This document shows, one piece after another, positions 13,889-53,872 of a DNA stretch of 64,000 nucleotides. Each line of letters begins with the position of its first letter. Position 1 is the stretch's first letter. The translations under genes were made by a program, and so were the position numbers. Source of the DNA: Microbacterium wangchenii (lineage in GTDB: Bacteria > Actinomycetota > Actinomycetes > Actinomycetales > Microbacteriaceae); NCBI RefSeq assembly GCF_004564355.1, contig NZ_CP038266.1, positions 1,426,001 to 1,490,000 of the forward strand, in the 5' to 3' direction. The notes below the pieces were generated by a model, which was given only the letters and a program-made list of their open reading frames with translations, had not been told where the DNA came from and did no database searches.

Positions 13889-14680
13889 TCACCGCTGTCG
13901 CCTGTCTACAGCGGTGGGCCGGGTCGCGCGCCAGATCTCCGCCCACTGCACAGGCCGCACGTCGCGGGGGAGCGCCGAGGGGGCCACACCCGCACGCGCC
14001 AGCGCATCCGCCACCGCGGCGGCCGAGGAACCCGGCGCGGCGCGGGGGACCAGGCGCGCCAGCGTGCCGCCGCGTCCGGTGAACACCCGGCGGACGAACG
14101 CGGCGTACGACCCGCGCTCGGCGAGGGGCACGAGCGGAGTGGCGCGCCGCTGGATGCGCAGCAGGCCCGCGTCCACGCCCGGGCGGGGCGAGAACGCGTG
14201 GGAGGGGATGCGCCCCTCCAGTGAGAACGAGAACCAGGGGTCGGTCTGAGCGGTCATCATCGTGCGACCGCCCACCCCGGCCCGCTTGCGGGCGACCTCC
14301 CATTGCAGCACGAGGACGGCGTGCGTCCACGTCCCGGAGTGCAGGAGGCGGCGCAGCAGCGGCGTGGTGAGGTGGAACGGGACGTTGCTGACCACGGTGG
14401 GCCGATCCAGCGGCACGGCGAGCCCGTCCGCGGCGAGGACGTCGATGTGGGGCGCGCGTCTGCGCAGCGCCTGAGCGCGCACGGGGTCGATCTCGATCGC
14501 GCGCAGAGGGCGGGCCAGGCGGGACAGCGGGAGAGTCAGGGCGCCGTCGCCGGCTCCGATCTCGAGGATGGGGCCGGGCGTCGAGCGCACGAGATCGATC
14601 GCGCGTGCGATGGCGCGGGGGTCGCGGAGGAAGTTCTGGCCGAGCTCGGCGCGGCCGCCGTACGGAGAGTGCATGGGCAT
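13889..14680 (-). CDS. erm: Erm-type 23S rRNA adenine N6-methyltransferase
   Basis: 263 residues. Erm methylates A2058 of 23S rRNA and blocks macrolide, lincosamide and streptogramin B binding. Visible motifs: ELGQNFLRDP (motif X, about 12-21), ILEIGAGDGALT (SAM-binding motif I), RAIEIDPVRA (II), DVLAADGLAVPL (III) and VVSNVPFHLTTPLLRRLL (motif IV, N-x-P-F). The GRAELGQNFL start separates Erm proteins from KsgA/RsmA, which is usually encoded elsewhere. Two starts are possible, ATG 14680 and ATG 14674. A leader peptide and stem-loop lie upstream, which indicates induction by translational attenuation. Confidence 0.85.
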   Translation of the reverse strand: MPMHSPYGGRAELGQNFLRDPRAIARAIDLVRSTPGPILEIGAGDGALTLPLSRLARPLRAIEIDPVRAQALRRRAPHIDVLAADGLAVPLDRPTVVSNVPFHLTTPLLRRLLHSGTWTHAVLVLQWEVARKRAGVGGRTMMTAQTDPWFSFSLEGRIPSHAFSPRPGVDAGLLRIQRRATPLVPLAERGSYAAFVRRVFTGRGGTLARLVPRAAPGSSAAAVADALARAGVAPSALPRDVRPVQWAEIWRATRPTAVDRRQR

Positions 14681-14735
14681 GCGAAAAGATCCAGTCGTAC
14701 TCGGGTGCGGAGCACGCGGACGACGCGGCGCGAGT

Positions 14736-14753
14736 CGCCCCTGGAGAGGGGCG
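14736..14753 (-). promoter_or_regulatory. Stem-loop in the erm leader
   Basis: CGCCCCT (14736-14742) pairs perfectly with AGGGGCG (14747-14753) around a GGAG loop (transcript read on the minus strand). It lies between the leader-peptide stop and the erm start, where attenuator structures are found in inducible erm genes. Confidence 0.5.
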
Positions 14754-14827
14754 GAGGGTCACGCTCGCGGGTCCGGGTGCAGGGTCCGGAGCGGAGCGAC
14801 CGGCTGTTCAGTCAGCGGGGCGCGCCG

Positions 14828-14890
14828 TCAGGCGCTGCGCAGCCGCGTCAGGGCGAGGCGGCCGAACGCCCCGTGCTTCGTGTATGCCAT
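14828..14890 (-). CDS. ermL: erm leader peptide
   Basis: A 20-codon frame, MAYTKHGAFGRLALTRLRSA, starts at ATG 14890 and stops 147 bases before erm. Residues 16-18 are Arg-Leu-Arg. Macrolide-bound ribosomes are known to stall at Arg/Lys-X-Arg/Lys motifs, as in the ErmD leader MTHSMRLR. The -10 box TACTCT (14898-14903) is 7 bases upstream, so the peptide would start a leaderless mRNA. The peptide call is inference from position, motif and promoter. Confidence 0.65.
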   Translation of the reverse strand: MAYTKHGAFGRLALTRLRSA

Positions 14891-14897
14891 GCAGGCG

Positions 14898-14903
14898 AGA
14901 GTA
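14898..14903 (-). promoter_or_regulatory. -10 box before the erm leader peptide
   Basis: TACTCT on the minus strand, 7 bases before ATG 14890; leaderless layout as in several other genes here. Confidence 0.45.
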
Positions 14904-14941
14904 GCGGAGCGGCGAGCGCGAGCGGGAGCCCCAGTTTCGTG

Positions 14942-15814
14942 TCAGGCGAGCCCAACCGCCTCATCCAGCCCCGCGATGGTGCGCAGTCGTTCGGCGCCGG
15001 CCAGTACCTCCAGGGCGGTGATGCGCCCGTGGTGGATGCCGAAGATCATCACCGACACGACGCGGCCGCGCACCACCGCCGCCACGGCGGGACGTCCGTT
15101 GACGAGGATGCGCGTGGAGCGAGCCGCGAGCGCTGCCGACAGCGCCGCACGCCCCGCGATGTCGCGGGCGCCGCGGATCGTCTCGCTGTGCGTGCCGTAG
15201 TCGGCCCGCAGCACGGCGCCTTCATCCAGCAGCTCCAGCAGCGTCGCGAACTCGCCCTCCCGCGCCGCGCGCAGCCACGCCGCGACCAGCCGGTCGTCCG
15301 CGCGCGACGCCGTGCGCGACGGCGCCGCGCCGCGCACACGGGCACGCGCGCGCGAAGCGAGTTTCCGGGACCCCGCTTCGCTGCGGTCGAGGATGGCGGC
15401 CACTTCGGGGAAGGAGAGGCCGAAGACGTCATGCAGGACGAACGCGAGCCGCTCGGCAGGTCCCAGGGTCTCGAGCACCACGAGCAGGGCGACGCCGACG
15501 CGGTCGGCGGCGGCTGCGTCCTCCTCCGGGGTGGGCGCAACATACGCGTGCGAGCGCCATCGCTCGGCGCTCAGTGGTGCCTCATGTCGCCGGCGGGCGG
15601 AGCGGAGAACGTCGAGACTCAGCCGGGACACCACCGTCGTCATCCATGCGGCGAGGTTGTCGATTCCCGCGGGGTCGGTGCGCTGCAAGCGCAGCCATGC
15701 CTCCTGGACGACGTCCTCGGCCTCAGCGGCGTCGCTCAGGAGGTTGACGGCGATGGCGACCAGGCGCGGGCGCTGCGACTCGTACCATCGGGCCAGCATC
15801 CGGGGGTCGGTCAT
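14942..15814 (-). CDS. SigJ-type ECF sigma factor with SnoaL-like domain
   Basis: 290 residues. Sigma region 2 is at about 5-75 (YESQRPRLVAIAVNLLSDAAEAEDVVQEAWLRL), region 4 at about 108-160 (TLGPAERLAFVLHDVFGLSFPEVAAILDRSEAGSRKLASRARARV). A SnoaL-like C-terminal domain (about 175-285) has LDEGAVLRADYGTHSETIRGA and LVNGRPAVAAVVRGR. Such sigma factors are controlled by their own C-terminal domain instead of an anti-sigma protein. The DGGGK motif of the ECF41 group is not present (DYGTH stands in its place), so it is nearer SigJ. It follows osmC by 27 bases on the same strand. Confidence 0.85.
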   Translation of the reverse strand: MTDPRMLARWYESQRPRLVAIAVNLLSDAAEAEDVVQEAWLRLQRTDPAGIDNLAAWMTTVVSRLSLDVLRSARRRHEAPLSAERWRSHAYVAPTPEEDAAAADRVGVALLVVLETLGPAERLAFVLHDVFGLSFPEVAAILDRSEAGSRKLASRARARVRGAAPSRTASRADDRLVAAWLRAAREGEFATLLELLDEGAVLRADYGTHSETIRGARDIAGRAALSAALAARSTRILVNGRPAVAAVVRGRVVSVMIFGIHHGRITALEVLAGAERLRTIAGLDEAVGLA

Positions 15815-53342: not shown

Positions 53343-53774
53343 ATGCTGCTCGGCACGCACACCCCCAAGCTCGACGACAAGGGCCGCGTCATCCTCCCGG
53401 CGAAGTTCCGCGACGACCTCGGCGCGGGCGTGGTGGTCACGCGTGGGCAGGAACGCTGCCTGTACGTGTTCTCCACGGCGGAGTTCGAACGGGTGCACGA
53501 GCGCATCCGGGAAGCACCACTGAGCAACAAGCAGGCGCGGGACTTCCTGCGCATGTTCCTGTCGGGAGCCAGCGCCGAGAAGCCCGACAGCCAGAACCGC
53601 ATCACCCTCCCGCCCGCGCTCCGTGCGTACGCGGGACTCGAGCGCGACCTCGTCGTCACCGGCGTGGGAGCGCACGCGGAGATCTGGAACGCCGACGCGT
53701 GGAACGCCTACGCCGAGAGCAACGAAGAGACGTACGCCGAGATGGAGCAGGAGGTGATCCCGGGCTTGTTCTGA
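53343..53774 (+). CDS. mraZ: Transcriptional regulator MraZ
   Basis: 143 residues. Two SpoVT/AbrB-like repeats: [23 protein letters not shown] and [30 protein letters not shown], with the D-x-x-x-R motifs. It binds the repeats just upstream and tunes the dcw operon. Start after GGAGGGGG. First gene of the cell-wall cluster. Confidence 0.97.
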
Positions 53775-53872
53775 CCCCCGGCTGTGATTCCCAGCCGCTC
53801 GCCCTGACGCACTTCCCCGGCGCCAGGTCGACGCGGATGGGGATCAGAGCCCCGGGCCGAAGCCCCCGCATC

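Follow-up and report, generated by a model that had tools for sequence, protein, structure and literature searches.

Does the short open reading frame ahead of the erm gene at this locus make that gene inducible by macrolides and, if so, how would a ribosome halted within the frame act on a start codon some 147 nt further on? The window, by which we mean the whole 64 kb stretch of DNA analysed, is part of a 3.83-Mb single-contig genome. The gene lies at 13889..14680 on the minus strand, as do all features of the locus described below, and a sequence-only reading of the window had named it erm. Its 263-residue product scores 234.3 bits against the NCBIfam model NF000499 (cut-off 212) and 123.9 against the RsmA model, below the cut-off of 171; it contains a match to PF00398, and its best relative in the PDB is Erm(38) (7f8a). 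The other match in the genome is a separate RsmA-like locus, 32% identical. Given that the Erm model scores above its cut-off and that the RsmA-like gene lies at a separate locus, we dropped RsmA as an identity for 13889-14680; by curated model score the product is an Erm, distinct from RsmA, and the name stands. Two in-frame ATGs, six bases apart, are present at the start of erm (14669-14680), and the second, at 14674, fits the usual start region of the relatives equally well and is closer to the point at which the majority of them align.

Upstream of erm, a frame running from an ATG at 14890 to a stop at 14828 and ending in TRLRSA had been picked out, with TACTCT seven bases before the ATG. 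The coordinates of the frame proved exact to the base, and TACTCT was re-read at 14898..14903. The ORF (14828..14890) comprises 20 codons plus TGA and encodes MAYTKHGAFGRLALTRLRSA, with R-L-R at residues 16-18; its stop lies 147 nt upstream of erm. TACTCT resembles a -10 box and is separated from the ATG by the 7 nt CGCCTGC, so that the base at -1 is C. When both strands of the 64 kb were searched for an ORF with R-x-R, two residues and a stop, the leader was the sole match. The gene immediately upstream of the leader, in the same orientation, encodes an ECF-type sigma factor (14942-15814); L003, the close relative of the window, has this neighbour too, and 518 of 602 columns agree across 600 nt.

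Conservation of R-x-R at the codon level among relatives had been set as a test of the leader, and such conservation is what we find. In a sample of 198 genomes of the genus, Erm (E <= 1e-40) is present in 56, and all 56 loci have, 118-189 nt before the aligned Erm start, a short ORF that carries R-x-R close to its end. So patchy an Erm, with a leader at 56/56 loci, is consistent with the unit being lost or transferred as a whole. A scan for an ORF 90-330 nt upstream, with a -10 box 5-8 nt before its start and R-x-R 1-3 residues before its stop, was positive at 73 of the 75 Erm loci of the family (the 56 of the genus and 19 further). Under a single rule, namely a short ORF with TANNNT 6-8 nt before its start and R-x-R followed by 0-6 residues to the stop, the leader was recovered at 115 of the 125 related Erm loci taken from the family, order and class. 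Among the ten misses, L082, L085 and L106 have an R-[DE]-R-R-A frame and lack a proper TANNNT box, while in L123 and L124 the frame contains R-L-R at a different spacing; the remainder are L064, L076, L089, L122 and L126. The two family loci outside the rule are L064, with a short frame MGTLIFAR that has a TANNNT box 7 nt upstream and no R-x-R, and L076, with the frame MDYTTLIRWCRR.

A second set of loci was fetched after the rule had been written down. It consists of the best 80 of 315 relatives from alignment A2, of which 30 were duplicates, one (L140) was too short and 49 were new; the loci were not drawn at random, and they belong to the same clade as the first set. Within these best 80 of 315 relatives the rule held at 40 of the 49 new loci, all from named records, and failed at nine. 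One layout is found overall at 155 of 174 loci, that is, at 115/125 and at 40/49, the latter from the best 80 of 315. L002 (RsmA) is excluded from all counts, and from two further lists of relatives 24/27 and 28 rows without loci stand outside them, L069, L070 and L123 standing inside. A search for related loci with a single Erm protein found no relative.

The most constant element of the layout is its spacing. Although 0-6 residues were allowed between R-x-R and the stop, exactly two are present in 114 of 115 leaders, and in 39 of 40 from the second set (best 80 of 315 relatives). In both sets, a peptide with several R-x-R was scored on the motif that fits this spacing. The residue x is Asp in 65 of the 115 leaders, Ile in 14, Leu in 11, His in 9 and Pro in 6, and more rarely Glu (5), Met (2), Gly (2) or Asn (1). 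The distance from TANNNT to the start is 7 nt in 86 of the 115, 6 nt in 26 and 8 nt in 3; C stands at -1 in 108/115; and a Shine-Dalgarno-like tetramer precedes only 2 of 73 leaders, as against 66 of 73 erm starts. With C at -1, the -10 spacing and no Shine-Dalgarno, the layout is as would be expected of a leaderless mRNA, which agrees with what had been supposed for the window. At 90% of the 115 loci the stop codon is enclosed by a perfect stem of 5 bp or more, compared to 15% of shuffles. In the window its counterpart is hairpin 1:2, GCGCC-TGAC-GGCGC (14822..14835), with the leader stop codon in the loop.

We consider it likely that the window leader is real and that, by translational attenuation, it allows macrolides or ketolides to induce the chromosomal erm. 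First, transcription would start at the leader ATG and ribosomes would begin on a leaderless mRNA, as suggested by the -10 spacing, the C at -1 and the missing Shine-Dalgarno. By analogy with ErmDL, the leader of Bacillus ErmD, a drug-bound ribosome would then stall at Arg16-Leu17-Arg18, the P site being occupied by Leu and the A site by Arg-tRNA. The stalled ribosome would cover the 5' arm of the stop hairpin, leaving the 3' arm (segment 2) free, whereas a terminating ribosome would cover segment 2. Finally, segment 2 would pair with segment 3, hairpin 3:4 would open, segment 4 would pair with segment 5, and segment 5 would release the erm Shine-Dalgarno. From the P-site codon to the front edge of a ribosome is usually 16-17 nt. 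In the ErmDL stall, the P site is described as occupied by the middle residue and the A site by Arg-tRNA (PMC8298421). If x likewise occupies the P site, the front edge would reach roughly to where the stop codon ends, and this geometry would explain the invariant distance from R-x-R to the stop. According to the same report, the RLR of ErmDL is needed for telithromycin and largely dispensable for erythromycin (PMC8298421), and "macrolide-inducible" may therefore mean mainly ketolide-type drugs.

The segments of this putative relay can be located in the window. Segments 2 and 3 (14798..14829) were read by eye as GACGGC (14824-14829) and GCCGGTC (14798-14804), which pair with one bulge and, to judge by their letters, are the degenerate counterpart of helix 2:3 in the RDRRA-type relatives. 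Hairpin 3:4 (14762..14796), taken from folds of the window and L003, consists of TCCGG/CCGGA at 14772-14790 and a lower stem CGCTC/GAGCG. Segment 5, CCGCGTGC (14712-14719), has GCACCCGG (14773-14780) as its counterpart partner, the two pairing by eye with a single mismatch, and with the anti-Shine-Dalgarno block GTGCTCC (14709-14715) it occupies 14709..14719; counterparts of both were found in 58 relatives. The erm Shine-Dalgarno of the window is a weak GGATC (14688..14692), which by eye pairs with GCTCC at 4 of 5 bases, whereas the relatives have GGAG. Between segments 4 and 5 lies a perfect 7-bp stem-loop with a 4-nt loop, CGCCCCT-CTCC-AGGGGCG (14736..14753). It had been seen between leader and erm, and we re-read it unchanged; as a lock on the erm start it does not hold up, given that it ends 55 nt before the ATG, that it does not contain the Shine-Dalgarno, that its stem has 6 bp in L003, the only close relative, and that other loci have a different sequence there. 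It is probably a spacer hairpin. As a whole, 14681-14890 folds more stably than shuffles (z -2.62).

The RDRRA-type loci have a strong GGAG and clear covarying alternative helices, both of which are weaker in the window lineage, and the switch itself is modelled on the helices and covariation seen in 58 of these relatives, of which the window holds only degenerate counterparts. Alignment A1 comprises these 58 RDRRA-type sequences; it omits L061 as identical to L060, L062 and L065-L075 (12 loci with another leader type), L064 and L076 (no leader by the rule), the window and L003. Run unaided on A1, RNAalifold picks 2:3 (columns 29-36/122-129) and 4:5 (148-153/244-249), which together we call the ON structure; the OFF structure consists of 1:2, the core of 3:4, and 5:6. 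In each, 97.7% of A1 cells are paired, compared to 27-59% (ON) and 32-55% (OFF) in slid controls. For ON, the covariation score and the paired percentage exceed all 500 shuffles, with changes on both sides reached by 15/500 and further pair types by 60/500. For OFF, the covariation score likewise exceeds all 500 shuffles, but the structure does not stand above them in changes on both sides (reached by 495/500) or in further pair types (500/500). Averaged over 40 distinct segment pairs, helix 4:5 has 8.9 pairs, a length that none of 5000 shuffles reaches. Column 153 covaries with its alternative partners, 136 in 3:4 and 244 in 4:5, the triplets being A-U-A in 24, G-C-G in 21, A-U-G in 7 and others in 6 of the 58 sequences. 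The erm Shine-Dalgarno with the upstream GTGCTCC is paired in 99.3% of A1 cells, mostly by invariant pairs. Since shuffling leaves relatedness in place, these are strong hints, though not proof, that the alternative helices of the RDRRA-type loci are mutually exclusive.

As a model of the switch, equilibrium folding gives a neutral to unfavourable outcome. Masking the leader as a stalled ribosome would do takes the mean unpaired value of the Shine-Dalgarno from 0.07 to 0.06 over 70 loci (L069, with no GGAG, is outside this count), with 2 loci clearly more open and 3 clearly less; with segment 3 taken up, it goes from 0.05 to 0.06 over 58 loci, with 5 more open and 5 less. Folding with and without the leader covered had also been put forward as a check for the window, and the result goes against opening: the Shine-Dalgarno becomes less open, its unpaired value falling from 0.35 to 0.23, and from 0.24 to 0.15 in L003. 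Helices 4:5 and 5:6 compete closely in equilibrium folds, and GC-rich RNA is prone to over-pairing in folding. It is from covariation that we infer the helix relay.

The failure of equilibrium folding to open the Shine-Dalgarno, together with long leaders whose stable hairpins would permit control of termination, would also suit a different role for a real leader, in which stalling keeps transcription from ending early in the GC-rich gap, at an intrinsic or a Rho-dependent terminator, and does not unmask the erm ribosome-binding site. However, a scan found no intrinsic terminator within 14500-15100, and the last conserved helix in the 58 relatives pairs, at that 99.3%, the erm Shine-Dalgarno itself. 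We believe transcriptional control of this sort to be unlikely, and translational attenuation remains the reading that we prefer.

A WhiB7-type promoter consists of an AT-rich block beside a conserved -35. Mycobacterial erm genes are reportedly under WhiB7, and by extension the leader here might be real but secondary, the main control being exerted at the promoter by a WhiB7-type activator. When 73 promoters were aligned on the -10 box, however, neither a conserved AT-rich block nor a conserved -35 was present, and a scan by consensus around the leader found no full sigma-70 promoter. With such columns missing from the 73 aligned promoters, we rejected a WhiB7-type promoter, and we think it very unlikely that the leader is subordinate to one.

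The lineage of the window calls for separate consideration. An Erm match at E <= 1e-90 is found in only two of 366 genomes of the genus, that of the window and G085, whose Erm is 87% identical to that of the window. In a quick tree, calculated without L057 and L131, the window and its close relative form a pair on a long branch, the placement of which is poorly supported (0.1); by distance, the nearest locus to the pair is L077, whose leader ends RPRSA. The bulge in 2:3, the mismatch in 4:5 (both by eye) and the weak Shine-Dalgarno of the window count against translational attenuation in this lineage. With its downstream segments degenerate relative to those of the relatives and its Shine-Dalgarno weak, the leader could instead set mRNA stability or basal translation by coupling, induction being minor or lost in the lineage. 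Yet when the window is compared with L003, the leader has changed less than the sequence around it, with 60 of 63 bases identical and one residue changed, as against 133/148 in the gap, 43/62 in the 60 nt before the ATG and 672/763 in erm, and R-x-R and its spacing are retained. The stop hairpin and the 3:4 hairpin are likewise retained in the lineage. We give coupling without appreciable induction only a slim chance.

That the leader is a chance ORF is scarcely credible and was discarded, for although Arg-rich short ORFs are common at 73% GC, the scan that was positive at 73/75 family loci was positive at only 21 of 10,000 random anchors and at none of 181 other ORF starts in the window (1/182 in all, the one being erm itself), and the spacing is fixed in 114/115 leaders and in 39/40 (the latter from the best 80 of 315). 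About 19 anchor positives were estimated from anchors falling near the window leader, close to the 21 observed.

On its residues, the window leader is a member of the R-x-R (+X+) class of erm leaders. It had been held to differ from the known leaders, which is correct for its sequence but not for its kind, as the leaders of Erm(X) and Erm(36) share its layout. The Erm(36) leader of Micrococcus luteus pMEC2, MGSPSIAVTRFRRF, has TAGGGT 7 nt before the ATG, as in the layout of the window, and shares R-x-R plus two residues plus stop and a long stem spanning the stop; it differs in having 14 codons, Phe as x, a stop stem of 12 bp and another N-terminus. The Erm(X) leader of Corynebacterium resistens pJA144188, MLISGTAFLRLRTNR, has RLR, TATAAT 7 nt before the ATG and a stop-spanning stem, but three residues after RLR and 15 codons; a "short leader peptide gene" is mentioned in PMC3350403. 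The RDRRA-type Microbacterium leaders, for example that of L047, MGTICAAPVMGRTLVFRDRRA, share the layout, the -10 spacing, the stop hairpin and the two residues after R-x-R, and have Asp as x where the window has Leu. ErmDL, too, is a short ORF ahead of an erm gene and contains Arg-Leu-Arg as its arrest motif (PMC8298421). In contrast to the window leader, however, its R-L-R stands at codons 6-8 with further codons behind, and not two before the stop.

Plasmid-borne genes were also compared (40 records with relatives, 12 fetched and 11 analysed). Erm(55) on a M. chelonae plasmid has the leader MGITSVAVIRIRRF, and RDRRA leaders precede the erm genes on plasmids of Dietzia, R. qingshengii and Kocuria. 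Among the 11 records, no R-x-R leader was found before Erm(46), Erm(50), Erm(51) or the Delftia erm, and in the Nocardioides plasmid copy the frame runs on.

On balance, we lean towards the view that, throughout the class, most members of the Erm(38)/(55)/(36)/(X) clade are controlled by one ancient leaderless sensor element rather than by many that arose separately. In such an element, R-x-R, two codons and the stop would be locked in register with the stop-codon hairpin; an arrested and a terminating ribosome would cover different arms and so trigger a relay of helices, the last of them at the erm start. A 2024 survey describes erm uORFs and palindromes as not universal, without a common pattern and perhaps of independent origins (PMC11264731). 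In contrast, we find one layout at 155/174 loci of the clade (49 of them from the best 80 of 315 relatives), and the spacing rule predicts where the ribosome must stop. A word search of PMC11878018, on erm(55), did not find "leader", and no paper on this leader or on leaderless erm leaders was found by title or abstract, which is weak evidence, the subscription literature lying mostly outside such a search. One leaderless layout with one spacing across the class may be a new point. Taken by itself the window leader is unremarkable; the interest lies in the class-wide spacing rule. If it is true, the free choice of x, of which nine kinds were seen, would turn the clade into a natural library of arrest peptides of the +X+ type on leaderless mRNA and allow a direct test of x and of leaderless initiation in macrolide and ketolide arrest. 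Furthermore, many erm genes of the class would be inducible, and plain susceptibility tests could miss them.

Several smaller observations complete the comparison. At gathering scores, Rfam matched only the mraW RNA motif, elsewhere in the window (53769-53866, plus strand; RF01746, 61.2 bits, gathering 50), and a known RNA family for the leader region was set aside. In g91, one genus of the order (L087, L088, L090, L094, L097, L098 and L101), the leaders end IRHRSA and the gap to Erm is 291-311 nt; the downstream RNA must therefore be built differently there. Lastly, L127, L128, L139, L006, L060 and L061 have near-identical leaders, MG[NK]LIC..A..[HY][ST]LAVRDRRA, although they come from Dietzia and Rhodococcus plasmids, a Corynebacterium MAG record and the Microbacterium-type L006/L060, which suggests that leader and erm were transferred as one unit between these loci.
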